DNA of 64,000 nucleotides from Macrophomina tecta (Eukaryota > Ascomycota > Dothideomycetes > Botryosphaeriales > Botryosphaeriaceae): the NCBI GenBank assembly GCA_024180945.1, contig JAKSGN010000003.1:1-64000 (forward strand). Reading direction: 5' to 3'. The notes under the pieces are model-generated. The model did not search any database and was not told the origin of the DNA. It saw nothing but the letters and a program-made list of their open reading frames with translations. The translations under genes and the position numbers were made by a program. Positions 1 to 16,591 of this stretch are shown piece by piece (within the stretch, counting starts at the first letter, position 1; each line of letters begins with the position of its first letter).

Positions 1-1090
1 TGAATTTGTACGCCGGGCTGTCCCAATCGTGCTGCCGCTGCGTCCGCATAAAAAACATCAACACCTGCTCCCACGACCGGGCACGGTCCTTGATCGATTC
101 CTCGTCCATATACGGCTGCAACGGCTGATATCGGGTCTGATGCTTCTCCGTCCTGATCGCCTGCATCCGCATCGACACGCCCGCCCGCTTCGCCACGCTC
201 TCCTGACTAATGCGGGCAACGTCCTCCATCGCCTGCCACACGGCCGTCTCGATCGGCTCGTTCGGATCGTCTTTTTCCTTATCGGCGGGCTTCCATCGTC
301 TGTTCTTCTTTTCGTCCTCCTCGCCGCCCGGCTTGACGATGCACCGCGACAAATCCTCGCGGTTCTTGCCGGCCAAATACTTCTGCCACTGCGTCCGCTC
401 CAACCACGGGTTCGCCTGATCCCTCTCGGCGTCCTGAACGACGGCGGCTGCCTCCTTCTCGGCCTGCTCGAACCGGGCCTGCATCTGCTGCCACGCCCGC
501 GTCCACGTGTCCCTGCTACTATCGTTGCTGCCGCCGTTGCCGTCTTCGCGCGTTCCATTCTCTTCCTCTGCCGGTTGCTGCACCTCGAAATACTGCGATC
601 CGTGCCGGCTCGTGAAAAATCGCTGACAATGCACCCGCCTCACTGCTTCCTGAAACCGCCTCTCGACCCGCTCGCCCTTGCTCTTGCCCGACCCGCCCTT
701 TCGGCTGCCGGCCGACCACTGATGCTCGATGCGCCAATGCTTCTTCATCGTCATTCTGTCCCGGCAAATATACCGGCACCCGTCGGGCTGTAACTCGCAC
801 ATTAACCCGTCCTGATGCAACGGCAACTCCGGGATCGGCCTGTCGATGCCTGCGGGCGCCTGAAATTCTCCGGGGGACCTGATTAATCCGGCAAACGCCA
901 CGACCTCCTCCGCGATCGCCTCTGCGTTCTTTCCGCTGATGCCGTGATGTCTGCCCTGCAAATGCCCTGCCACCTGATCCGGCCACACCGCGTGCCGGCA
1001 CTCCTTGCACACGACGACTCCAAATTCTCCTAACCCTAAATGATGAAAATACTCCGCTGTTTCGGCCATGTTGACTTGCGCTTGCTGCAT
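1..1090 (-). CDS. Telomere-linked RecQ-type helicase, copy A (N-terminal part, runs off left edge)
   Basis: The ATG is at 1090 and the frame stays open leftward to the window edge, about 363 residues. It is the same protein start as copy B at 5501, and in the overlap the two translations are indistinguishable. Visible features are an N-terminal zinc-finger-like pair (CKEC at residue 28, later C/H residues near 105-123) of the kind found in OrsD-like (DUF3505) proteins, then a charged, Glu/Lys-rich region. The recombinase-like and helicase regions lie outside the window. The 5' flank, including the telomere motif and satellite, is duplicated with the gene. Identity with copy B suggests recent duplication or gene conversion. 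Whether copy A is intact cannot be seen from here. Confidence 0.75.
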   Translation of the reverse strand, partial: MQQAQVNMAETAEYFHHLGLGEFGVVVCKECRHAVWPDQVAGHLQGRHHGISGKNAEAIAEEVVAFAGLIRSPGEFQAPAGIDRPIPELPLHQDGLMCELQPDGCRYICRDRMTMKKHWRIEHQWSAGSRKGGSGKSKGERVERRFQEAVRRVHCQRFFTSRHGSQYFEVQQPAEEENGTREDGNGGSNDSSRDTWTRAWQQMQARFEQAEKEAAAVVQDAERDQANPWLERTQWQKYLAGKNREDLSRCIVKPGGEEDEKKNRRWKPADKEKDDPNEPIETAVWQAMEDVARISQESVAKRAGVSMRMQAIRTEKHQTRYQPLQPYMDEESIKDRARSWEQVLMFFMRTQRQHDWDSPAYKF

Positions 1091-1461
1091 GCTCGTTATT
1101 TCGCTGCTATCTGCTTATTCTTTCGCTGCGTTGATGCGGGAAACCACCCTTTGCTATCGAACTAACTACTTTAACCCTTGCTCTTAACTCTCTGACTCGG
1201 CGCCTGCTGCACGTTCGCGCGCTGCGTGCCTACCCGGCGAATGCGCGCTCTTTAACCACTACCGCGCTCGGGCCGCTCTTACCCCATCAACCTTACCCTA
1301 ACTTACCCCAACTGCCAAATTACGCTCGAACACGCGATCGGGCGGGCATGTCATACGCAAAAATTCTTATCGCCTAACCGCGCTCTGCAACATATCTTAA
1401 TTTAACGCGAATCCGACATCTTTTTTCTGAATCGACCGTACTCAATCGACCGTACTCGTAA

Positions 1462-1473
1462 CCCTAACCCTAA
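1462..1473 (-). repeat. Interstitial telomere motif (CCCTAA)2
   Basis: CCCTAACCCTAA, followed by the degenerate AACCTTAA. The + strand reads CCCTAA, as expected if the chromosome end is to the left. It sits between the helicase 5' flank and the 47-bp satellite. Just outside it are two copies of the satellite half-site: TGAATCGACC at 1428-1437 and CAATCGACC at 1443-1451. Confidence 0.8.
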
Positions 1474-1488
1474 ACCTTAATTTTGTAT

Positions 1489-1535
1489 GGGACCTGAATC
1501 GACCCTTATAACGGTCGATTCACTCCTTTCGGTTT
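1489..1535. repeat. Single 47-bp subtelomeric satellite unit, fused to the helicase 3' end
   Basis: This is one unit of the satellite that forms a six-copy array at 5899-6180. It carries the palindrome arms TGAATCGACC and GGTCGATTCA around the spacer CTTATAAC. Read on the - strand it continues the truncated helicase frame into satellite-encoded residues. The RecQ gene was therefore cut at this point rather than ending naturally. Confidence 0.9.
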
Positions 1536-4500
1536 GGTCCATCATGCTACGCGGCTCGCCCGCGTGCACGATCAACCTGATGCCCGGTATATCGATCCCC
1601 ATCCCCAACGCGCTCGTCGCCACTACCACCCGTTCTCTACCCACTCGGAAATCCTCCAACACCTCGTCCTTTCGCCGCTCGCTCATGTCTGCCCGGAATT
1701 CCTCGCACGCGAACCGGCCTGCTTTCGCCAACCGCTCCACCTCCCCCGCGTCTTGCAATAAACTACTACTTTCCCCTCCGCCGACGCCCTCAACTCCCGA
1801 TCCACTAACTCCGCTACCAAATCCTCCTGCTCCTTCCTACTACTCTCCTTCCTGCCAACCACCCGATACCGCACGTTCTTCCGCACCGTCGACCCCCTAA
1901 ACATCTTTACCTCGTCCGCCCTCCATCCCATCCTTTTATACAACCTGCTCTCCTCCGCCGCCGGCAATGTCGCCGTTAATAATATCATCTGCGTCTCTAC
2001 TCCCGCCAACTTGCCCAACTGCTGCAAATGCTTCCGAAAATCCACCCTATCGTTCAACACGACGTGACATTCGTCCACCACGATACGGTCCAACTGCCTC
2101 GTCCGCCTGATGCGCTTTAAAAACGTCCCGAACTCCTCGCCCACCGCCGCCTCCGGCGTCACCAACACGATCGACTCCGCATCCGCCTGCCGCCTGCCGC
2201 CCCATACCGCGCACCGCACCCCCGCCTCATCGCACCGCCGCTTCATATCCTTCCGCAACGACTTCAACGGCACCACTACTACTGTCGTGCCACCGGGTTC
2301 TGCCCACGCCGGCAATGTGAATAACACGCTCTTGCCCGCCCCCGTCGGCATCACTGCCACCACGGGGCTGTGCCCTGCCTTGATCGCATCCAATGCCGGC
2401 TCCTGCACGCTGCGGAAAACCGCCTCCTTACCCACCAACTGCCGCAACTGTTCCTCGGCATTCATCTTGTTTAACCGGATCCAACGATCCAACCGCTCCT
2501 CTTCCGCCTCCTCCTCGAACGGGCACCGCTTGCGCTTTTTGCTCGTCGCCTTGCTATCCGCCGCCTCGTTCCGCTCGTCTGCCTGACCCGTCGGTTCGAA
2601 TCCTAAAAATCGGTGCCAATCGACGCTGCACGCCCGGAACTGCTGCCTTCGTTCTGCCACCCACCCCAACTGCTCCATGATTCCCCTCGCATATACGATT
2701 CCCGCCACGTGCGACGTGTGCCCTGCCTGCGCGTCCGCGATCGCCGCCGCCATGCCGTCCTCATCCTGCCGCTGCTCGCTATCGTCTCCCTCTCCATCGT
2801 CCTGCCTGAACGCCGTCGGCCCGCGGATCCACTGCCTGCTGATTGCTATCGCGATATCACGATACGCCCGCACCGTGACTTCATGCCCTAACCCCGCTGC
2901 TGTCTCCCGCTTAATCGCCTGTCTCATCCGCTCCGTCGTCCACTTCTTGCCCCCGGGCTCGGCTGCCCATAAATGCGCGGACAACGGCGGCGACTGCTCC
3001 TGCTCCTGCTGCTGTTGCTCCTGCTGCTGCTCCTGCTGTTGCTCCTGCTGTTGCTCCTGCTGCTGCCCCTGCCGCTGCCCCTGCTGCTGCTTGCCTCGTA
3101 TCAACACCTCAATTCTCTGCTGAAACGGCAAAACCAACCACAAATACCACACCAACAACTCGCCCACCTCGCGCGGTAAATACCGGTGAATGATCTTGAC
3201 ATCTCCCTGCAACGCGTACCCCTTGTGATACCGCGTAACAAACACGACCATCCCGTCTTCGATGAAAATATGCCGGTGCCCCGCCTCCGCCGTGTTGCTG
3301 TGCCTGATGCTTAATATCTCCGGCCCTCTCGCCGGCTGCCCGCCCGTTATGTGCATCAACACCAATAACTTTTCCTTAAACGCCGCAACCCGGCTCATCC
3401 AATCCGATACCGCCTCGCGGCTCAACCCCGACGCCGTCCCCTGCCGGGTGAACCGCTTTCTGACCGCGCCGTTCTGCATAATCTGCTCGAACAACCACGA
3501 CCTCCCGTCCACGGGGAATCTGTTGCGCTGATCCTGCAAAAAATTCCACCCTCGACGGCCGTTTGTCGGGTCGTCATGCATCGAATGCCACGGCACCGCG
3601 GGCACCTCCCGCCGGCTTTTGCAAAACAACAAATCCTCGACCAACACCTGCGCCGTCGTCTGCGCCAAACCGTGTACCATCCCGCGGAACTGCGCCATGC
3701 TGAACGATATGTTCTTGTACTCCAACACATCTCTATCCCTCCACCCGACGTGCCCTTTCGCCGTTGTGTTGAAATGAATCTTCATACCATACGCCCGCAA
3801 ATCCAAAAACCACTGCATCGGGCTGTCGCTGCCGCGGACCATGAAATCGTCCATCATCTTGTTCACCCACTGCAACCCGCTCCTGCCGGGGCGCCTGCTG
3901 CTCTCGCCGCTTCTACTGCTTCCCCCGCTTTCGTATCCACTATCTTCGAAATCACACGGCCTCGCGCTCGCGCTAAAATGCTCGTTCTCCTCCGCCGGCG
4001 TTGCTACCTCGAATGCCTTCTGAATGACCATGAAATGCGCCACCTTGATCAACGCCGATAAAATCGACCCGTATGTCTCCGGGCCTCTCCAACTGTTGTC
4101 CGTCGGGTCGACTCCTAACACGGCGGCGGCGCATACCAACGCACTCTCGTACTCGCGCTCGACGAATCGTTGATTCAACAACTCGATGCAAAAATCTAAA
4201 CATGCCCGTTGAATCGGGGTTAATTTTTGCCACTTCTCTTCGTCCTTCTCGTTTGTCTCGCTTTCTTCCTCGTCGCCTTCCCCTTCTCCCTCCTCTTCTG
4301 CTTCCTCGTTATCTTCGTTTTCTTTGTTACTTTCTTCCCCATCTTCGCCTCCTTCTACCTCCCGCTCTGCCTCTTCGACCAATCTGACGAATGCTTCGAA
4401 CTGACTGCGGGTGAATTTGTACGCCGGGCTGTCCCAATCGTGCTGCCGCTGCGTCCGCATAAAAAACATCAACACCTGCTCCCACGACCGGGCACGGTCC

Positions 4501-5501
4501 TTGATCGATTCCTCGTCCATATACGGCTGCAACGGCTGATATCGGGTCTGATGCTTCTCCGTCCTGATCGCCTGCATCCGCATCGACACGCCCGCCCGCT
4601 TCGCCACGCTCTCCTGACTAATGCGGGCAACGTCCTCCATCGCCTGCCACACGGCCGTCTCGATCGGCTCGTTCGGATCGTCTTTTTCCTTATCGGCGGG
4701 CTTCCATCGTCTGTTCTTCTTTTCGTCCTCCTCGCCGCCCGGCTTGACGATGCACCGCGACAAATCCTCGCGGTTCTTGCCGGCCAAATACTTCTGCCAC
4801 TGCGTCCGCTCCAACCACGGGTTCGCCTGATCCCTCTCGGCGTCCTGAACGACGGCGGCTGCCTCCTTCTCGGCCTGCTCGAACCGGGCCTGCATCTGCT
4901 GCCACGCCCGCGTCCACGTGTCCCTGCTACTATCGTTGCTGCCGCCGTTGCCGTCTTCGCGCGTTCCATTCTCTTCCTCTGCCGGTTGCTGCACCTCGAA
5001 ATACTGCGATCCGTGCCGGCTCGTGAAAAATCGCTGACAATGCACCCGCCTCACTGCTTCCTGAAACCGCCTCTCGACCCGCTCGCCCTTGCTCTTGCCC
5101 GACCCGCCCTTTCGGCTGCCGGCCGACCACTGATGCTCGATGCGCCAATGCTTCTTCATCGTCATTCTGTCCCGGCAAATATACCGGCACCCGTCGGGCT
5201 GTAACTCGCACATTAACCCGTCCTGATGCAACGGCAACTCCGGGATCGGCCTGTCGATGCCTGCGGGCGCCTGAAATTCTCCGGGGGACCTGATTAATCC
5301 GGCAAACGCCACGACCTCCTCCGCGATCGCCTCTGCGTTCTTTCCGCTGATGCCGTGATGTCTGCCCTGCAAATGCCCTGCCACCTGATCCGGCCACACC
5401 GCGTGCCGGCACTCCTTGCACACGACGACTCCAAATTCTCCTAACCCTAAATGATGAAAATACTCCGCTGTTTCGGCCATGTTGACTTGCGCTTGCTGCA
5501 T
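1536..5501 (-). pseudogene. Telomere-linked helicase copy B: OrsD-like Zn fingers, tyrosine-recombinase-like region, RecQ core; frameshifted and truncated
   Basis: ATG at 5501; 1272 codons are open to 1683. Regions in order: zinc-finger-like C28/C31/H43/H48 and C105/C109/H118/H123 (OrsD/DUF3505 style); an acidic stretch at about 374-422; a tyrosine-recombinase-like region with R725 (ITGGQPARGPEIL), K760, R878, H928 and Y937 (GHTSHVAGIVY), carrying a Q/E-rich insert at about 802-837; then the RecQ helicase core with Walker A K1057 (PTGAGKS) and DECH 1143-1146. Motifs IV-V continue only in a second frame ending at the satellite. The frame change is near a C5 run at 1743-1747, so a one-base indel is likely. 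The coding sequence stops at 1535, just before the motif VI QxxGRxGR segment, so helicase activity should be lost. Subtelomeric RecQ-like genes are a known fungal feature. The recombinase reading is inference from motif order and spacing. Confidence 0.85.
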
Positions 5502-5945
5502 GCTCGTTATTTCGCTGCTATCTGCTTATTCTTTCGCTGCGTTGATGCGGGAAACCACCCTTTGCTATCGAACTAACTACTTTAACCCTTGCTCTTAACT
5601 CCCTGACTCGGCGCCTGCTGCACGTTCGCGCGCTGCGTGCCTACCCGGCGAATGCGCGCTCTTTAACCACTACCGCGCTCGGGCCGCTCTTACCCCATCA
5701 ACCTTACCCTAACTTACCCCAACTGCCAAATTACGCTCGAACACGCGATCGGGCGGGCATGTCATACGCAAAAATTCTTATCGCCTAACCGCGCTCTGCA
5801 ACATATCTTAATTTAACGCGAATCCGACATCTTTTCTGAATCGACCGTACTAATCGACCGTAGTTTCGTAACCCTAACCCTAAACCTTAATTTTGTATGG
5901 GACCTGAATCGACCCTTATAACGGTCGATTCACTCCTTTCGGTTT
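4412..5945. repeat. Right copy of the direct duplication (matches 1-1535)
   Basis: It covers the helicase N-terminal third, its 5' flank (5502-5870), the telomere motif and the first satellite unit. To its right the satellite expands to six units, whereas the left copy has one unit fused to the truncated helicase. The 5' flank (5502-5868) shows no other gene. It presumably holds the helicase promoter. Confidence 0.95.
5872..5883 (-). repeat. Interstitial telomere motif (CCCTAA)2, second copy
   Basis: CCCTAACCCTAA in the same orientation and context as at 1462. It is preceded by half-sites TGAATCGACC (5837-5846) and TAATCGACC (5851-5859) and followed 15 bp later by the satellite array. It probably records a former chromosome end onto which helicase units were added. 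Confidence 0.8.
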
Positions 5946-6180
5946 GGGACCTGAATCGACCCTTATAACGGTCGATTCACTCCTTTCGGTTTGGGACCTG
6001 AATCGACCCTTATAACGGTCGATTCACTCCTTTCGGTTTGGGACCTGAATCGACCCTTATAACGGTCGATTCACTCCTTTCGGTTTGGGACCTGAATCGA
6101 CCCTTATAACGGTCGATTCACTCCTTTCGGTTTGGGACCTGAATCGACCCTTATAACGGTCGATTCACTCCTTTCGGTTT
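5899..6180. repeat. Six tandem 47-bp satellite units
   Basis: Six identical head-to-tail units start at 5899, 5946, 5993, 6040, 6087 and 6134, with no spacers. Each unit begins GGGACC and ends CTTTCGGTTT. Offsets 7-34 form a 28-bp imperfect palindrome: 10-bp arms TGAATCGACC / GGTCGATTCA around CTTATAAC, whose inner TTATAA is itself palindromic. The array ends 176 bp before the NRPS start codon, so the subtelomeric block abuts, and may have replaced part of, the NRPS promoter. 6181-6356 shows no other feature. Confidence 0.97.
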
Positions 6181-6356
6181 GGGTGTTAGTCCCCCGTAAC
6201 ACTAGCCAACTGTGTACAAGGTCCGTCGAGGTGGCGATTAGAGAAACCACTAGAGCAGCGATTTCCTTATTGCGCGTATATAGCATTTGTTCATCCTGTT
6301 CAATGCGGAAATCTACAATACACTTATACCTCTGCCCCCTCTGTTCAGATTGAACG

Positions 6357-9300
6357 ATGCAAAGTCTAAGCATGGAGGGGAGAAATAGCCACACTGTGAA
6401 CGACAACGGCAGTCACATCAATGGAAGTCATCAAAATGGCAGGAATCTCGCTACAGAGCCAACCATCTCTGAAGAACCCAAAGCGGTCGAGGAATGTGTC
6501 CACCATGCGTTCGAAGCGCAAGCGCGTGAGAATCCTCAAGCACCGGCCGTCGATGCCTGGGACGGAAATCTGTGCTATGCGGAGCTGGATATCTTAGCCT
6601 CGACACTGGCGCATCATCTCCTCGAACTAGGGGCTGGGCCTGAGTGTGTGGTCGGGCTGATGTTCTACAAGTCTATGTGGGCTGTGGTCGCTATGGTTGC
6701 TGTCATGAAGGCCGGCAGCGCCTGTGTCAATCTCGCACCAGGCCAGCCTGCGCGGCGGCTCCAGTCAATCATGAGAAAGAGCAAGGCAATTATGGTTGTG
6801 AGCTCACCCACGCACAACTCATCTGCACGCACGTTGAGCTCAAACACGGTCTCAGTCGATGCTCAGTTCCTCAGCAAGCTCCCCCGGAAGACCGCAAGTC
6901 TTCCGCTTGTTGCGCCCAGGAATCCTGCCTACATTCTCTTCACTTCTGGGAGTAGCGGTGAGCCCAAGGGCATCGTTATCGAGCATGGCTCGCTCAGAAG
7001 CAGTTCCCAGGCCCATGGACGGCAGTGGCACATCGGGCCCGGCACGCGTGTGTTCCAGTTTGCGGCCTTCACCTTCGACGTCAGCGTCGCGGACATCTTT
7101 ACTTCCCTTTCGCGCGGCGCCTGCGTCTGCGTTCCCAGCGAACGCGGCCGCATTGAGGACCTTGCAGGTGCGATCCGCCACTTTAAGGCTAACTGGGCTT
7201 TCCTCACGCCCTCTGTCGCAAGCACAATTTCACCGTCTGCAGTGCCCGGCCTGGAAACCCTTGTGCTTGGAGGAGAGCCCGCGACGAGGCAGCTTCTGCG
7301 CGACTGGGCGGACCATGTGGAGTTGATTGTCTGCTACGGCCCTGCCGAATGCTCCGTGTACTGCTCAGGAACAGCGCCGGCGCATCGCGAGCAGGATCCA
7401 TTGAACATCGGATTTCCGGTTGGATGTAAAATTTTCATTGTCGATCCGGATAATCACAACATATTGATGCCACCAGGATTGACTGGAGAGATTGTCGTCC
7501 AAGGCCGCATTGTTGCTCGAGGATACTTGAATCAAGCAGACGTAACTGACGGGCCCTTCTTGGACGAGATACCGTGGGCTGGTAGTTGGAAAGCACGGCT
7601 ATACAAGACGGGTGATCTCGGCCGTATCAACTCGGATGGCTCGATCAATATCGAGGGACGCAAGGACATGCAGGTCAAGATCCGAGGTCAGCGGGTCGAG
7701 CTGGGGGAGGTCGAGCATCACCTCAAGAATATCTTTCTGTCCTCCAACCATATTATCGCACACAGTCCGGCTCAGTCGAGGCCTGGAAATGTCCACCATG
7801 ATCTTGTCGCCTTCGTCGTTGGGCCAGAGACCTGTCGTATGTCTGAGGACGATGGTGCGTGGACGGACAGAGTGGAACATGCTCGAGACTCCCTCAGGGG
7901 CATTTTACCCTCGTACATGTAAGCTTTATAAGCCCTCATCTTTCTCATTGCGCTTGATTCTGACATAATCCACTAAGGATACCCACTTTATTCATACCGT
8001 TGCGAGCCGCGCCCTTGACCGGCAACGGAAAAATTGATCGCACACAGTTACAAAAACTGTACGACAAGTACATCGAAGCGGCAGCATTGCGCACGACCGG
8101 GACATCTTCAGCCACTGAAAATACTGAAGAGAAGCTACTCTGCATGCTTTGGTCGGAAGTGCTTCATGTCCCCTCTCAGAATATCGGACCGAAAGATAGC
8201 TTTTTGCATCTGGGAGGCGATTCTATCAAGGCAATGCTCCTCATTAGCCGAGCCCGTGACGCCGGGTTTAACTTGAGCTTCCGTGCTGCTCCAGGCTCGC
8301 TCAACCTATCCACTATGGCCAAGGAGCTGAGATATAGCGGCGCCACAGAAGTCCCGCATGTTCTAAAACCGTTCTCGCTCGTGCAATCAGCAGACTGCCA
8401 GTCAATGATATCAACTTGTGCCGCATTATGCGGCCTGGAGCCGGGACTTGTGGCGGACATTTATCCCGCAACACCATTGCAGGAAGGCTTGATGGCCTTA
8501 TCTCAGAAAAAGCACGACCAGTATGTGTCTAGATACGTGTTCAAGATACCTCCAGATATGTCTCCGGATCGAATCATTTCTGCGTGGAACGATGTGTACG
8601 AGGGCCTTGATATCCTTCGGACAAGGCTAGTCTACTCCTCTGGGCACAAACGGACACTGCAGGTTATCGTCAGTGAAAGGGTGGAGTGGAGAAGTGATGA
8701 ATATCCGGAAGATCCTCTTGGTCTCGGCGGAGAGGCGGCTTATGGAAAACCGTTATCGAGACTGGCTATCCTGCATGAACGCTCTCAAGGAGATAGACAT
8801 ATCGTTTGGTCTGTCCACCACAGTCTCATCGATGCCATTTCAGTCGGTCTTATTTTTGACCTCGTCGCCGCCCGGTACCGAGCACTCGCAAGCCCATTTC
8901 TTGTCCCGTTCAGAATGTTCGTCGCATTTGTTTCTTCGCTCGACGAGCAGGCGTCGCGTAGCTGGTGGAAAGAATATCTGGCAGACGCATTAGCACCCGA
9001 TTGGCCCCCTACGGCGCGAAATGAATCGCAGGTGGAAACGATATCGCACTCCTTCACATTCGAGTCTCCTCGAAACCGAGGTTTCACGATTGCTACACGC
9101 TTGCGCGCTGCGTGGGCTTTCCTAATTTCAAGCTACTCTGGCTCTTATGACGTGGTCTTCGGATCCACGAACTCTGGCCGCTCGCTTGCAATGCCTGGCA
9201 TTCTCGCCGTTGCAGGTCCGACCATAGTCACAGTGCCTTTCCGCGTGGCCTTCAGCGAGAACCAGACCTTGAGAGCGTTACTTCAATCTGTACAAGACCA

Positions 9301-9700
9301 CGCGAGTTTGATGTCAAGCCATGAGCATCTCGGGCTGCAAAAGATTAAGACCCTCCATGCGAGCACTCGGTCGGCATCGAATTTCCGCTCTCTACTGGTA
9401 GTCCAGCCGCGGCAGGATCAGTCAACACTGGCAAAAGTAACGCCTGTAGTGGTCGCATCCGATCCAGTGGTCGGTAGTTATCCGCTCACGCTGGAGTGCA
9501 AAGAAAACGCTACATGCATCGAGATGGTGCTGAACTTCCAGTCGGATAGTGTACCAAAAGCGAAGGCAGGGCGAATCCTGCAACAAATGGCTGATATCGC
9601 GCAGAGATTCATGACGGAATCAGTCGAATCGCTCGTATTTAACAACCATGTACGCTTACCGCAATCGTTTGGAAATTGCCCGCCAGAGAGCCTGCACAGC
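6357..9700 (+). other. NRPS module 1: A1-T1-C1
   Basis: The adenylation domain shows A3 (FTSGSSGEPKG), A5 (CYGPAECS), A7 (YKTGDL), A8 (GRKDMQVKIRGQRVELGE) and the A10 lysine (LTGNGKIDR). Carrier T1 has LGGDSIKA, with the phosphopantetheine Ser at about 8222. The condensation domain has the active HHSLIDAIS at about 8815. The assembly line starts with A, so this module loads the first residue. Intron 7919-7977 lies between A8 and A10. No lesion is seen in this module. Confidence 0.9.
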
Positions 9701-10110
9701 CAAGATTATCTGCAAACATGTATCCAGGATGAATTCCGTAACATGGCAGCCAAACAGCCATCAGCCCCATCCGTAGTTGGGTGGGACGCGGAGTGGGACT
9801 ATGCTGCTCTGGACGAGCTGTCTACTGCAGCAGCATATGCCCTTCACGAGCTAGATGTAGCGCATGGATCAGTCGTTCCTATTTGTTCGACCAAATCCAG
9901 CTGGGTCATCGTTTCGATGCTGGCTATTCTGAAAGTAGGCGCTGCATTCCTGCCTCTGGACCCCTCAAATCCGCCGGAACGCCTTAAACGCATAGTCAAA
10001 AGAGTCGAAGCGAAGGTTGTCATAAGCAGCACAGACAGCGCCCCCACATTCTCAGGAATCGTGCAGCAGGTGCTTGAACTGACAGAAATCTCCTCTGGCG
10101 TATCTGCCAA

Positions 10111-10154
10111 TCATAACCACGGCCTCCCAAAATCATAACCACGGCCTCCCAAAA
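10111..10154 (+). repeat. 22-bp tandem duplication causing a frameshift in NRPS A2
   Basis: Bases 10111-10132 are repeated exactly at 10133-10154. Because 22 is not a multiple of three, the frame shifts and reaches TAA at 10136-10138. The downstream A3-A8 motifs continue in the frame that the single-copy state would give. This looks like a microduplication by slippage, or an assembly artefact. Confidence 0.92.
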
Positions 10155-11291
10155 TCAGACCCCGCAGCGCTCGCTTACCTGATCTTCACTTCCGGCTCGA
10201 CCGGTGAGCCAAAGGGCGTCGAGGTCGAGCACCGCGCCTTCTGCACCGGAGCCCTGCGGCGTGCGCCATCAATCAACCGGAACGGTAACTCGAGGGTGTT
10301 CCAATTCTCCTCTTATGGATTTGACACGAGCATCGAAGACATCCTGACTACCCTCATCACAGGCGGCTGTGTGTGCGTGCCTAGCGAGCGGGATCGAAGA
10401 GACAACTTCGCAGGGGCATTCAAACAGCTGGGCGCCAACTGCGCCGACATCACGCCGTCGCTCGCGCACGTGCTGAAGCCGGAGGAGCTGCCCGGGTTGG
10501 AGACGTTGATCCTCGGCGGCGAGTTCATGGGCTCCTCTCTAGTCCGGAAGTGGGCAAATGGCAAAGTCAAGCTGATCAATACATACGGACCAACCGAGTG
10601 CGCCATCGTTGCGAGCGTCACGGAGCCCCTGCACAGCGGCGGCGATGCCAATACCATCGGGCGCTTGCCCTGCGGTCGAGCCTGGATTGTTAGCCCCAGC
10701 AATCACAACCGCTTGCTGCCAAAGGGTGCGGTTGGCGAGCTGCTGGTTGAAGGACCTCTGCTTGCCCGCGGCTACCACCAGGACGCTGAGCAAACGCGCC
10801 TCGCATTTGTTACAGGTGTTACCTGGGCGAGTCCGGAGCAGAGGTTCTACAAGACCGGCGATCTGGTCATGGTCATGGAAGACGACAGCCTCGTCTTCAT
10901 TGGTCGAAAGGACTCCCAAGTCAAGATCCGCGGACAGAGAGTCGAACTAGCCGAGGTCGAAACACATGTGGGCGCTGCTTCTGGTGCAGAAAATGTGGTT
11001 GTCGAGTTCCTTTCCGTCCACAACCGAGAACGATCTTTGGTTGCGTTTCTGGCCTTATTTATTTATTTATTTATTTATTTAGTTTAACGTCCTTCTTGAG
11101 TCAGAGACTATCAAAGACGGGCTTTAGAAGCCGTTTCTAGTTATACATTTTCTAGAGGCTCCTTGTAAAAGAAGCATTCTAGGAGAGCACAAGGAATAGT
11201 AGACTTAAAAGCCAAACGAGAGGCAGGCCTCTAAGGAGATAGTATAAGAGAATAGTAATAGAAAACAAAGGAGTGTAAGCGTCGGACGTAT

Positions 11292-14200
11292 TTAAACCCC
11301 GTCGGGCGTGTTGTTAAGAATCCACCGGCGCGTAGATATCTTGGTTTTTCTAAGAAACTCAGCTGTTGCTTGAGTGCCTTTATTTGTAGTGAATAGGTCC
11401 GTAAGATTAAGAATAGGTTTCTCCAGAGCGTCTTTTATAGAGAGCCTTTCAGCTCTATATAAATAACAGTCTAAGAGGAGATGTCTCGGTGTTTGCTTTG
11501 CCGTACCAGAGCAGTAGCATCTATCATCCTCTACATGGTTAAAACGGTAGAGATAGGACTTGAAGTACCCGTGTCCAATCTTCAGCTGGTAGAAGGAGGA
11601 AGCTGTTTCCCTTACTGTAGTAGGGGCGATCAGCTTCCTCTTTATCTTCCAGGTAAATGCTTTACTGTAGGCTGAGCTGGGAACTGATAAGAGCTGGCTT
11701 TTCCACTCGTTGTAGAGAACTTCTTTTAGTTGCATTCCGTAGAATGCAACAGAAGTGTCTTCTGTTGTAGGGGGGATTAACGTTGCTTGTTTAGCAAGTC
11801 TGTCGGCCTCCTCATTTCCGTGCACGTTGACGTGCCCCGGAACCCATTCAACCGTGACTTTGTTGTCCCTGTCTCTTAGCTGCCTGGCAGCGTGAATTGC
11901 CCGTTGCTGCCACCGTTGGCCAGGCGTGTTGTTAGGGTGTTTGAGCCTCAAGAGTGCAGCCTGGTTATCCGCAAAGACTCTTATATCTTTTGACTTGTAC
12001 CCATGTTTGTTGGCTAGCTCAAGGGCAGTGGTTATGCCATCAAGTTCACCGTTATAAACGAGAGCGTTGGGACCAATATTCTTAGTAGCTCTTACTTGGA
12101 TTTTGTCTCTGGATTGGCTGTAATCTAACAGTACCACTCCAACACCTATTCCCATTCCCTGAGGAAGTGATGAGGCATCAGAGTAGAGAGCTATAAGATT
12201 GTCCGGGGCCTCTGCCAACGCTTTTGAGTGCTCAGTAGCAGCATCTGCTTTGCTTAAGGTGGAGATCTCTGTATTGTAGGGAGTGTACCCGGCCCATGGT
12301 GGGTAGAGAAATGGATCGACTTTCTCTATATCCCTGGGGATCGAGCGTAGTGTATCCTTAATTCTCTCTAGCCGTGTAGCTGGGCTGTTCTCTCTAGATT
12401 CTAGATTGATCTTGTCGAGTTCTTTCCGTACTGGATGGTTTTCTCCGAGTTGGCTGATTCTTAATGCGTACTTCCGGAGGGTAGCATTTAGTCGTAGCTC
12501 TGGCGGAGGTATTGCAGCCTCTACTTCCATTGGTTTAATAGGGGCAGTCTTGAACACTCCTAGGATCTTCCGTAGGGCAAGGTTTTGGAGGAGGTTGTGT
12601 TGTCTTTTAACTGCCCACTGGTTGTTCCAGTATAGTTGGCAGCCAAAGTCGGCTACGCTTACAACACAAGCGTTATAGAGTTGTCTAATTGCATAGGGAG
12701 AAAGTCCCCGTTCAACATTAGCTAGCCTTGAGAGGCGTTGGAAGGTAGATCTTGCTTGACTTATTCTTATAGAAACGTGTTCTTTAAAAGTAAGCAGCGG
12801 GTCAAAGAAAATACCTAGCCATCGTACAAGATTCTGGGGCTTCTTCACCTGGCCATCCGGTAGAACAAGAGATGAGGAGGTTGCTTCTTTAGATCTACTA
12901 AAGTGAAGTAGCTCTGTTTTATCCAGGTCAAAGGCAACGCCCTTTTCTTTACCACGTTTGTAGAGCTCTCTTATCTCCTCTTGTAGTATTTTAACGTTGC
13001 GTTTAAAGCTGCTGGAGCTAGCTATTACTGCAATATCATCTATGTAGGAGAGGTAGACAACTTTATGAGAGGGGAAGAGCTCTCGGAGGTAGATAAGGAA
13101 GAGTATTGGTGAAACAGGGCTCCCTTGCGGAATACCTGTCTCAATCGGGCTGAACTCTTCCTCCTCTCCATTAAACGCAAGCCGTAGTTGTCGTTTATTT
13201 AGGAAAGATCTGATCCACGCGAGAAGATTGAGTGGAAGGCCTATTTTTGCCATGATAGTAAGGAGTTGTTCTTGAGCAACGTGATCAAAGGCACCTTTTA
13301 CATCAAGGAATACTACTGATGTTTTACGTTTTACTCGTCGGTTCTCTTCTACCTTATTAGCTAGTAATAAGGCAGCGTCAATAGCAGATTTCTTTAGCCT
13401 TCCCCCAATTTGAGAGGGATCTAGAAGGTGTGTTGTCTCTGCTAGATAACTCAGACGTTTGGCCGTGATTCGTTCTAATATCTTCCCAAGACAGTTGAGC
13501 AAGCTGATGACCCGGTAGGACTTGGGAGCATGTATATCTGGCTTGTTCTTGCTGAGAATTGCGCCTGTTGCTTCTCTCCAGCATAGCGGGTGGTATCCAT
13601 AGCTGAATAGAGTACTGAACACCTTGTAGAAGGCTTGTGGGGCTGCTTTATACGCCTGGATAATGATCTCTTGCGTTATAGTATCAGGCCCTGGGGTTTT
13701 CCCCTTTATTTGAGTGGAGCATGCTTGTTCAAGTTCTGCTTCCTTTAGGAGGGGCCAGTCCCAGTTTGTGGGATTGTATTCCTCCCAGTTGAATGGTAGT
13801 GCCTGTGGAGGTTTTGGGAATAAACCTGTACGGAGGGCAGAACACTTCCCCTTAAAGCTATCTTCTAGTACCGCATTTGGGGCTCGGATTTCAGGGATCC
13901 TTACCTCCCTCCGTGGCTTAGTGTATGACATTGCTTTGTAGATTGACGTTGGGGTCTCCTTAGAGAGAAAGTTGTTCCAGTGTTCGCGTTTTGCTTGTTT
14001 CACCGCCTGTAGAAAGGTGTTCCGGGACTCAAGGTATGCCTTTATGCTAGTAGCGGTGGGGTTCCGTCTGTTATTACGTGTTTTTTGTCCTAGGTCTAGC
14101 CGTAGGTTGTAGAGCTCGTCTGTCCACCATGATTTAAAGCGAGGCCCCAGTTTGAGTTTGGGGATAGTAAGTTCTGCAGCATAGGTAATGGCTTTAGTCA

Positions 14201-15122
14201 AGCTACTACCTAGATTATTAAGTGCTGGGACTGATAACGTATTGCCCCCTGCTATATCCTGAGAGAGGGTAGAGGGGCTTAGCTGCTCTATATCTAAGAG
14301 TACGCTTGGAAGGAGTTGCTCTATCTTCTCCCGGAATAGATTAGAGAATTCCGACCAGTTGGCCTTCCTAGTATTGAACCGGGTGGTAGGCTGTGCTGGG
14401 GAGCTCGTAGGAGGCTCCATTGGACTAATAGAAAAGAAGATTGGGTAGTGGTCTGAGCCAAGGTCTTGAATGACTTTCCACCCTTCTATCCTGTCTTCTA
14501 ATTCTCTAGTTGCCAGGGTAAGATCGATAGTAGTTTCTCTACTAAGATGGCTACGGTGGAAGGTGCCTCTACCTATCTTATTGAGTAGACTAAGGTTGTT
14601 ATCTTCGATCCATTGGATGAGCTGGGGAGCCCTGCTATCTGGGCTAGATCGTGGATCCCACCACGGGTGGTGTGTGTTGAAATCTCCGGCTATGATAGTC
14701 GGTGTGGTTATACTATAGTAACTAAGGACGCGTTCTATAGTATAGAGAGACCCTGCTTCCTCTTGGTCCACTTGATTGTAGAGGTTTAGGAGCTGGAATT
14801 TAGAGTTCTGCTGGATAATCTCAAGTAGTAGTATATCGGGACTAGCAAAGAGATCGGCCTTGTAGTTAACCTGGGTTTCCCTCAGAAACCGTGAGATATA
14901 GGTTAACGTACGAGGCCTTAAACCAGGAGGAGTAACCGGGAGAATTTGACCAAAGGATGGATGGTTGATAGAGCGGTTTTCAGAGGGATTAGGGGAGATG
15001 ATAACCCAAGGTTCTTGAATAAGAATCAGGTCAACTTTTATCTCAACTGCGTAGTTCAGGATTGCCTCGGTAACCGAGGAATTCCTATTAACATTGGCTT
15101 GCAGTATTCTAATAGATCCCAT
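11292..15122 (-). CDS. LINE ORF2: endonuclease, reverse transcriptase, RNase H polyprotein
   Basis: 1276 residues, ATG at 15122. An APE-like endonuclease occupies about residues 1-225 (IQEPWV, AGDFNTHHPWWD, LGSDHYPIF). The reverse transcriptase spans about 470-740, with motif A FLDVKGAFDHV, motif B GIPQGSPVSPILF and catalytic SYIDDIAV (about residue 694). RNase H follows at about 970-1110 (LYSDASS, ADNQAALL, GHVNVHGNEEADRLAKQA). A C-terminal CYCSG...H...C zinc-binding cluster comes last, as in other fungal LINEs. All catalytic residues expected in these domains are present, so it could be active. It nicks the target and primes reverse transcription there. The start codon overlaps the ORF1 stop (TAATG), suggesting termination-reinitiation. 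Confidence 0.95.
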   Translation of the reverse strand: MGSIRILQANVNRNSSVTEAILNYAVEIKVDLILIQEPWVIISPNPSENRSINHPSFGQILPVTPPGLRPRTLTYISRFLRETQVNYKADLFASPDILLLEIIQQNSKFQLLNLYNQVDQEEAGSLYTIERVLSYYSITTPTIIAGDFNTHHPWWDPRSSPDSRAPQLIQWIEDNNLSLLNKIGRGTFHRSHLSRETTIDLTLATRELEDRIEGWKVIQDLGSDHYPIFFSISPMEPPTSSPAQPTTRFNTRKANWSEFSNLFREKIEQLLPSVLLDIEQLSPSTLSQDIAGGNTLSVPALNNLGSSLTKAITYAAELTIPKLKLGPRFKSWWTDELYNLRLDLGQKTRNNRRNPTATSIKAYLESRNTFLQAVKQAKREHWNNFLSKETPTSIYKAMSYTKPRREVRIPEIRAPNAVLEDSFKGKCSALRTGLFPKPPQALPFNWEEYNPTNWDWPLLKEAELEQACSTQIKGKTPGPDTITQEIIIQAYKAAPQAFYKVFSTLFSYGYHPLCWREATGAILSKNKPDIHAPKSYRVISLLNCLGKILERITAKRLSYLAETTHLLDPSQIGGRLKKSAIDAALLLANKVEENRRVKRKTSVVFLDVKGAFDHVAQEQLLTIMAKIGLPLNLLAWIRSFLNKRQLRLAFNGEEEEFSPIETGIPQGSPVSPILFLIYLRELFPSHKVVYLSYIDDIAVIASSSSFKRNVKILQEEIRELYKRGKEKGVAFDLDKTELLHFSRSKEATSSSLVLPDGQVKKPQNLVRWLGIFFDPLLTFKEHVSIRISQARSTFQRLSRLANVERGLSPYAIRQLYNACVVSVADFGCQLYWNNQWAVKRQHNLLQNLALRKILGVFKTAPIKPMEVEAAIPPPELRLNATLRKYALRISQLGENHPVRKELDKINLESRENSPATRLERIKDTLRSIPRDIEKVDPFLYPPWAGYTPYNTEISTLSKADAATEHSKALAEAPDNLIALYSDASSLPQGMGIGVGVVLLDYSQSRDKIQVRATKNIGPNALVYNGELDGITTALELANKHGYKSKDIRVFADNQAALLRLKHPNNTPGQRWQQRAIHAARQLRDRDNKVTVEWVPGHVNVHGNEEADRLAKQATLIPPTTEDTSVAFYGMQLKEVLYNEWKSQLLSVPSSAYSKAFTWKIKRKLIAPTTVRETASSFYQLKIGHGYFKSYLYRFNHVEDDRCYCSGTAKQTPRHLLLDCYLYRAERLSIKDALEKPILNLTDLFTTNKGTQATAEFLRKTKISTRRWILNNTPDGV

Positions 15123-16591
15123 TAGGAAGATGTCTGCTTCCTAGTATTGGAGGTTCTAGGTCCATGCAGCTTCTCTGCCTTACAGCTAACTCCAAAGAGT
15201 GATAGCCTTGAGGATATAGCCTTGCGGGCCTCGTTCTCTGTGCTGAAGGCAATAACAATTGAACCTCCCTGTTGTGTTAGTCGTTTGGCTTCTGAGGTGA
15301 GCCAGTACGGTTCCCCAATTGCTGTAAGACCAGAGTTGAAGGTCTTAATTTCTTCCTTAACTAAGGAGGAGAATTCTTCTCGTGAGAAGGTATTGAGGTC
15401 AGCTGTTGGGATTCCATGAACAGCAACCTTATACCATGGTTTATTCTCTATAATAGAGACCGTAGGTATAACCGAGTCAATGATTTTCTTATTCTTGAGG
15501 AGGAAGTCGGCTGAGTAGCTTTCAGTTACCGTAAGAACAAGGTTCCCTTTCTCTGAGATTGAGGCAGCAGAGATTACAGTTGGCTTTTTTGAGTATGCTA
15601 TCGAGAATGCCTTGTTAAAAGCGTTTCTCATGGCGAAGGATGAGATCTCGCTAGGGCGGCTGACTAGGCGTAGAACTGCTTGCCGGGGGGGTTTCGTCTT
15701 CTTTCCTCCGGTTGGGGAGATGGTTGTCTTTGTTGTCTGTGAGGGGTTCTTCCGGGCGATTGTTGTCCACTCCTGGCTATTGGTAGCGGCAATAGAAGCG
15801 TCGTTGCTCGTGGGGGAATTTGCTAGGGGAAGGATAGGATTGGGAGGCTGTGGAATATGTATAGACGTGGGAGGGGCAGCTGGTAGCTTGTTCAGTTCCC
15901 TTGTCCGGTTGGCTAGAGCCCTTGATGTGTTCTCTAGAGATCGGACTTGGGTGGCAAGGATTGACTTTGCCTTATCGAGTATACCTCCCTCTGTGTACTC
16001 CCTAAAGATCTGTAAGAGGTCTAGGATTTTCCGGTTCTTCTCTAGGTCTTCTTCGAGGTTTGCTGCTTTCAAAAGGCAGTCAAGTGCTCCTTCAAGGGCA
16101 GCGTCCACTGTTGTAAAGACACCAAATCGTGCTCTCTTTTTCTGGCCTTCCTTTGTGTGCACTGTGAAGAGTGTCGTGGGAGGCATAGTAGCGAGAGATG
16201 GGCTACGAGTAGTTCTAGTAGGAGTAGACTCTATCGTGATAGCCGGGCGTTTGAGTGGGTTGCCTATAGGGTGCTGTGCATCTTGTTGTGGGGTAACCGG
16301 GGGGGGTGGGGCTTGGGGGGAGTCTTGAGCAGTTGGGATATCTATCATCTCATGGTCGGTAGACGTTTGTCCTGGGAGGTTTTCCTGGTATTCTCGCTCC
16401 GGTGTTGGGCATCTGGAGGGAATAGGGGAGCCTAGTATGATAGGCCCCCACTCCTTGTCCCCGTGTGGGGGAGGGTCGGGTTGGTCCATTATGCTGGAAG
16501 GGTCTAGGGAGTGCTTGGTAGGAGGCCCGTGTGTTGAGCTTTGACCAGGGGTCAAAATCTCTTCGGTGGTTGGCTGTGGGAGAGGCTCCAC
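15122..16591 (-). CDS. LINE ORF1: Gag-like nucleic-acid-binding protein
   Basis: The open frame is up to 489 codons. The upstream end at 16591 is a GTG and the first in-frame ATG is at 16489 (about 455 residues), so the start is uncertain. The N-terminal third is Pro/Thr/Ser-rich. A coiled-coil-like segment near residues 160-235 is followed by a globular region (SRPSEISSFAMRNAFNKAF onward) resembling LINE ORF1 RNA-binding folds. I see no CCHC zinc knuckle, which many Tad-like ORF1 proteins have. Its stop TAA (15122-15124) shares one base with the ORF2 ATG. The role is presumably RNA packaging and chaperoning of the element. Confidence 0.8.
   Translation of the reverse strand: MEPLPQPTTEEILTPGQSSTHGPPTKHSLDPSSIMDQPDPPPHGDKEWGPIILGSPIPSRCPTPEREYQENLPGQTSTDHEMIDIPTAQDSPQAPPPPVTPQQDAQHPIGNPLKRPAITIESTPTRTTRSPSLATMPPTTLFTVHTKEGQKKRARFGVFTTVDAALEGALDCLLKAANLEEDLEKNRKILDLLQIFREYTEGGILDKAKSILATQVRSLENTSRALANRTRELNKLPAAPPTSIHIPQPPNPILPLANSPTSNDASIAATNSQEWTTIARKNPSQTTKTTISPTGGKKTKPPRQAVLRLVSRPSEISSFAMRNAFNKAFSIAYSKKPTVISAASISEKGNLVLTVTESYSADFLLKNKKIIDSVIPTVSIIENKPWYKVAVHGIPTADLNTFSREEFSSLVKEEIKTFNSGLTAIGEPYWLTSEAKRLTQQGGSIVIAFSTENEARKAISSRLSLFGVSCKAEKLHGPRTSNTRKQTSS

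Follow-up and report, generated by a model that had tools for sequence, protein, structure and literature searches.

The helicase unit at the left contig end

Telomere-linked helicases (TLHs) are RecQ helicases encoded by genes that lie in many copies at chromosome ends; known examples are S. pombe tlh, Magnaporthe TLH and U. maydis UTASa. Helicase genes have long been known from fungal chromosome ends and, to our knowledge, have no clear task there. The window analysed here, the leftmost 64,000 nucleotides of contig C3 (JAKSGN010000003.1) of the fungus Macrophomina tecta, carries a TLH gene whose protein is predicted to contain a tyrosine recombinase (YR) domain. The assembly (54.1 Mb) has 37 contigs with 74 contig ends, and contig ends are equated with chromosome ends throughout. 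The coordinates of all features are collected in Table 1.

The protein encoded by the open reading frame (ORF) combines an OrsD region with a RecQ helicase and its gene is multicopy at chromosome ends, the combination by which TLHs are recognised. The window copy is incomplete: its reading frame is broken toward the 3' part, and TLH sequence ends at 1538, where a distal unit is joined (1538/1537) onto the truncated proximal one. Other copies in the genome have longer open frames (1329-1339 aa, and 1722 on C28), and a divergent copy on contig C28 is intact, with 1679 aa, the first 1583 of which contain OrsD, DEAD and Helicase_C. Pfam finds no credible match between the OrsD and DEAD regions of the window protein. 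Judged by its predicted structure and sequence, the TLH protein would be a three-part enzyme, in which a YR catalytic domain lies between an OrsD-type region and a RecQ helicase; such a set of domains should enable it to bind, cut and unwind DNA.

Table 1. Features of the TLH unit in the window and of related contig ends
Feature	Position	Strand	Basis or remark
TLH ORF, 1272 aa	1683..5501	-	ORF listing
OrsD region (PF12013), residues 22-124	5130..5438	-	Pfam, E 1.7e-22
N-terminal conserved part of recombinase region (probably its core-binding side), residues 545-690	3432..3869	-	Conservation; two models; dN/dS 0.09
Predicted tyrosine recombinase catalytic region, residues 691-968	2598..3431	-	Conservation, models, fold alignment, selection
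R725, box-I arginine	3327..3329	-	Kept in 120/120 (first homologue set) and 113/117 (second set)
K760, lysine right behind second strand of predicted three-stranded hairpin	3222..3224	-	120/120 and 116/116
Gln-rich insert, residues 801-840	2982..3101	-	Sequence
R881, box-II arginine	2859..2861	-	119/120 and 84/88
H928, box-III histidine	2718..2720	-	118/119 and 69/75
Y937, candidate nucleophile	2691..2693	-	119/119 and 72/72
DEAD half of RecQ helicase, residues 1031-1181	1959..2411	-	Pfam; Helicase_C half cut off in window copy
TTAGGGTTAGGG tract within unit	5872..5883	-	Second copy at 1462-1473
Six 47-bp repeats at unit left end	5898..6183	-	Left terminus CCCAAACCG at 6183; other DNA from 6184
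Inverted repeat example in 47-mer, TGAATCGACC-GTTATAAG-GGTCGATTCA	6140..6167	.	Sequence
Distal neighbouring TLH unit: one 47-mer, upstream region, TLH codons to ~363	1..1537	-	Ends at contig end
Ends with common last base: C1, C3 (both), C5, C6, C7, C8, C9, C11, C13, C18, C21, C30 (both), C31, C33, C36	C3 left = window 1		

The predicted recombinase domain

Conservation of the putative active site was followed in two sets of homologues. The first, obtained with residues 500-970, holds the best 120 of 472 proteins, and PF00270 is also listed for 114 of them. The second was obtained with an alignment of eight members, which matched 487 proteins; of the 120 listed, 117 were new, and these gave 127 aligned stretches that are more distant and often partial. 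Its denominators count the residues present. Aspergillus, Penicillium, Cladophialophora and Trichoglossum are among the names in this set, and the entries from Tanacetum and Quercus among the homologues are probably fungal contamination. Both sets were recruited via the recombinase region itself and are thus uninformative on TLHs that lack this region.

Members of the tyrosine recombinase and type IB topoisomerase superfamily carry R, K, R, H/W and Y in this order, and so does the TLH family. R-K-R-H-Y is complete in 117/120 proteins of the first set; the exceptions read RKCHY and RKRYY, and one has no letters at the His and Tyr columns. E728 is invariant as well (120/120). The Arg-Lys spacing is 35 in 118/119, and the distance of nine between His and Tyr, which the original prediction had likened to that of XerD, holds in all 119 homologues that have these columns. 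In an alignment of XerD with eleven other recombinases the six classical positions line up, with one Thr at Lys. The residues on which that prediction was built (R725, K760, H873, R878, H928 and Y937) are all present in the ORF, and four of them, R725, K760, H928 and Y937, are conserved. Its choice of R878 as the catalytic arginine has to be replaced: Arg is found there in 2/120 homologues (A 81, Q 26, R 2, H 2), whereas R881, three residues on, is kept in 119/120 and is therefore the box-II arginine.

The fold claim rests on VIA-align, which was used as a second look at Foldseek candidates. The predicted fold aligns with tyrosine recombinases for two models (176 and 422 chains aligned), and the predicted structure has the catalytic-domain fold of the superfamily. 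The model strands span residues 745-748, 751-758 and 769-774, with a low-confidence loop between the last two. Purifying selection is evident from the ratio of nonsynonymous to synonymous substitution rates (dN/dS), computed by comparing the window copy with the one on C28. It is 0.046, 0.05 and 0.018 in three catalytic pieces, 0.074 in the acidic insert, 0.09 in the N-terminal part and 0.079 over the whole recombinase region, as compared to 0.099 in DEAD and 0.23-0.32 in OrsD, the mid region and the linkers; the Gln-rich insert yielded no value. The recombinase domain is roughly as constrained as the helicase. Since dS ranges from 0.19 (N-terminal part) to >1.5 (short pieces), single dN/dS values are rough, and some exchange between TLH copies is likely.

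Several observations weigh against a recombinase. The histidine of the HxxR motif is missing in nearly all homologues, in line with the original prediction: counted from R881, it would occupy the position of R878, which is His in 2/120, and the box-II motif of the family is mostly [A/Q]xYR. Residue 873 is His in 11/120 homologues and mostly Q. Conservation by itself is not decisive, since 88 of the 424 alignment columns show one residue in at least 98%. Foldseek alone gave no significant match for either model, and H928 and Y937 sit in a low-confidence stretch of both. None of eight diverse members has a tyrosine-recombinase match in Pfam, PHROGs or NCBIfam, even with E values of up to 10 allowed, and PF11917 did not match either; the sole recombinase-named match was PF20552, 'recombinase-like helix-turn-helix', in 2/8 members (best E 0.048). 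PDB sequences searched with the domain profile returned two chance matches and no YR, and PF00589 had no match in the M. tecta genome. In hhalign, the comparison with Xer and Starship captain profiles was not significant (at most 3%; 3.0 and 0.2 against PF11917), and a control of captains against Xer reached 5% when four captain sequences were used and 56% when 97 were. In the comparison with the captain profile, box I and the lysine line up; in that with Xer, box I and the His-Tyr motif do. The relation to Starship DUF3435 captains that the original prediction proposed to look for is not seen at the profile level.

These points can be answered in part. Captains, which are fungal YRs, carry Tyr at the HxxR histidine position, with the Arg kept, in 44/44 covering rows (of 97 gathered); its loss is therefore not fatal, and this histidine does not define every tyrosine recombinase. 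The low-complexity inserts exist as had been described, and were thought to hide the domain from profile searches. This was rejected as the main cause, because 7 of the 8 unmatched members lack the poly-Q insert; its long version is also absent from most of 13 other homologous fragments (by eye; one has it). As profile libraries, the PDB search and hhalign all fail to give a YR match, the domain is placed in the YR superfamily by its predicted fold and active site, and in no known family. A chance resemblance, in which some other helical domain happens to carry a similar motif, would account for the lack of profile matches, the weak Foldseek result and the low model confidence near H928 and Y937. 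Against it stand the fold comparison with two models, five ordered conserved residues, a fixed spacing and purifying selection, and we regard it as very unlikely. The fold, the catalytic residues with their spacing, and the selection strongly support the recombinase part of the original prediction; the models and the alignments make a genuine YR domain in the TLH protein highly probable, and the predicted domain is likely to be catalytically active. Among viral contigs searched for related loci, 20 stretches fit a pattern and none was confirmed.

The left end of the unit and its junctions

TLH units begin with one to seven 47-bp repeats. The 47-mer contains an inverted repeat of two perfect 10-bp arms with 8 bp between them, and an arm of at least 10 arose in 9/20000 shuffles. 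Units have a fixed left end: among 20 distinct junctions with other DNA, 17 have their first base in a stretch of four (TCCCAAACC to CAAACC). One of the remaining junctions, at the C27 contig end, lies clearly outside these four bases, and two are ambiguous and were scored as outside. The 20 junctions were judged by eye from 31 rows, 11 of which were dropped as point variants inside an array. The P value, 4e-15, was computed for 17/19. Some of the 17 junctions may not be independent, as GATG, GATGG and GATGGA are one place and 8 of the targets appear by eye to be TLH or unit sequence. An extra C5 junction, outside the count, fits the four-base window by eye. The DNA to which units are joined comprises subtelomeric DNA of several contigs, a long interspersed nuclear element (LINE) and older TLH units, the latter cut at several points. 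The LINE is cut at one site, seen at seven contig arms, within what translation identifies as its RNase H part. The end at C27:1-2620 seems to be built of mini-units (47-mers with ~400 bp of upstream region); its first 600 bases (C27:1-600) hold no TLH coding part and include one junction in another phase.

The divergent C28 unit begins at the corresponding point, CTAACC... (by eye), and has a second AAACCGAAA motif ~350 bp further in. Its left end cuts a gene resembling a pogo-type transposase (by eye; C28:230000-243598). A two-ended insertion was considered here and rejected, since a second pogo-like transposase, to the right of the unit, is not the same as the left, cut one and covers the same protein part (by eye). 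Three half-site copies of this unit all have GACT instead of GATT (by eye), which suggests that they are read by a protein, although the left arm is irregular. The domain could be a YR fold that has lost catalysis, a sequence-specific DNA-binding module for recruiting the helicase to the repeats of the left end, as half-sites that differ in step between unit families and the near-universal absence of the HxxR histidine might indicate. Five catalytic residues, tyrosine included, are kept in 117/120 homologues, however; pure DNA binding gives no reason for the retention of Y937, and the gathered captains lack that histidine too. We consider a module of this kind unlikely.

All 44 TLH matches listed point toward the nearer contig end, and the 29 of them that were measured lie at most 20 kb from it; 36 of 153 TLH candidates were scored. 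A degenerate TLH fragment at C21:1316000-1316300, ~250 kb from the contig end and in reverse orientation, is the sole internal piece seen. Seventeen of the 74 contig ends stop at the identical base (...GGCGTACAAATTCA), within TLH codon ~363, and at C33 this common end point is joined to a new unit. (TTAGGG)4 does not occur in the whole assembly. The common end is most simply read as a junction of TLH and telomere that was copied from end to end and whose telomere repeats dropped out of the assembly. For M. phaseolina, PMC6829926 reports telomeres on 7/14 nuclear contigs of one isolate and none in another. A TLH that works like a telomere resolvase, processing palindromic sites into closed or trimmed ends, would also account for the last base that many contig ends share, and is in our view extremely unlikely.

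A possible role in joining units to chromosome ends

We put at roughly 0.7 the probability that the YR domain is genuine and functionally constrained and that it belongs to a chromosome-end element whose left end is fixed, whatever does the joining. How the domain may contribute can be outlined as follows. Bound at inverted half-sites (GGTCGATTCA) beside the left end of its own unit, the TLH enzyme would nick or exchange strands through Y937, with the helicase opening up the DNA. In our preferred reading, the unit is a chromosome-end element that is joined by its fixed left end, gene outward, onto truncated chromosome ends, including those formed by truncated older TLH units, so that the ends would grow as stacks of units. 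The odds that the YR domain acts at the left-end repeats seem about even. That it drives the joining is a more tentative proposal, with the balance somewhat against it. It is doubtful, still, that TLH units represent a new class of chromosome-end transposon, in which an OrsD-YR-RecQ enzyme attaches the fixed left end to telomere-less ends and the ends are rebuilt without telomerase. A self-mobilising telomeric element had been envisaged in the original prediction; its mobilisation part is only indirectly supported, by a fixed left end that is joined to many different sequences, the outward orientation and the confinement of the measured pieces to contig ends.

Recombinase-driven joining faces difficulties of its own. 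The inverted repeat is set back from the junction by 16 bp, within the unit, and a search for complete insertions flanked on both sides yielded none in the assembly. Four of the five targets of known uncut sequence have 3-5 bases in common with the left end, namely CCCA for the LINE, CCC at two TLH-unit sites, and CAAAC, and the GATG site shares none; repair-type joining fits this microhomology as well. An active YR may instead serve the host at chromosome ends, in a topoisomerase-like or junction-resolving capacity. The units would in that case spread from end to end passively, through break-induced replication and joining at microhomologies, like yeast Y' elements, with which TLHs have been compared (PMC4522978). 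Besides the microhomology, such spread would suit the 97-100% identity of the first 13 TLH matches, which lie at different contig ends, the near-equal distance of the repeats from the end in most ends examined, and the varying number of left-end 47-mers. It leaves unexplained why 17/20 junctions with different targets share one 4-nt phase of a 47-bp repeat, and why the divergent C28 unit starts at the corresponding point. We hold passive spread to be a serious possibility that falls short of being probable.

TLHs of the window family agree with the known ones in being RecQ helicase genes with many copies at chromosome ends. The OrsD domain is shared with part of the Ustilago elements (PMC10532341). 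A YR domain is not mentioned for known TLHs in the descriptions consulted. No link between TLHs and tyrosine recombinases was found in titles, abstract openings and parts of PMC12857005, PMC4522978, PMC10532341, PMC10799480 and PMC6829926; preprints were not covered, and a report elsewhere is possible. Helicase-bearing DNA transposons such as AcademH, KolobokH and Helitrons are likewise fungal mobile elements; no YR-RecQ fusion is described for them in the parts of PMC10799480 covered.

Compared to Xer, Cre and other tyrosine recombinases, the TLH domain nearly always lacks the HxxR histidine, has longer median spacings (R-K 35, K-R 88, R-H 44) and no profile-level similarity, and is fused to OrsD and RecQ. 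The captains of Starships resemble it in the sequence after box I (T-K-G-Y against H-K-G-Y, by eye), and differ in their His-Tyr spacing of 10 rather than 9. The captain gene lies near the left end of its element, and captains move large cargo; we know of none that carries a helicase. The M. tecta genome itself has 43 PF11917 matches (exon pieces), some with stop codons; one of its captain proteins matches M. phaseolina proteins at 94% along the full length and at 98% over a part. In yeast Y' elements and Drosophila HeT-A arrays, too, units that bear a helicase or are mobile form stacks at chromosome ends and are truncated on the distal side. TLH units differ from both in that their protein has a predicted YR domain and that they join through the 5' side, at a point that is fixed.

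With a conserved recombinase active site inside TLHs, the question of what they do becomes directly testable, as the question whether one tyrosine cuts and joins DNA at chromosome ends. If it does, TLHs would be added to the few known means by which chromosome ends are built from mobile elements, and the rapid change of this part of fungal genomes would have an enzyme behind it. The domain suggests that TLH gene units may spread through self-attachment to chromosome ends.

In the window, the left end of the unit lies ~170 bp upstream of a gene resembling a non-ribosomal peptide synthetase (frames 6357-11087, by eye, within 6184-16591). Beyond this gene lie LINE-like frames at 11292-16591.
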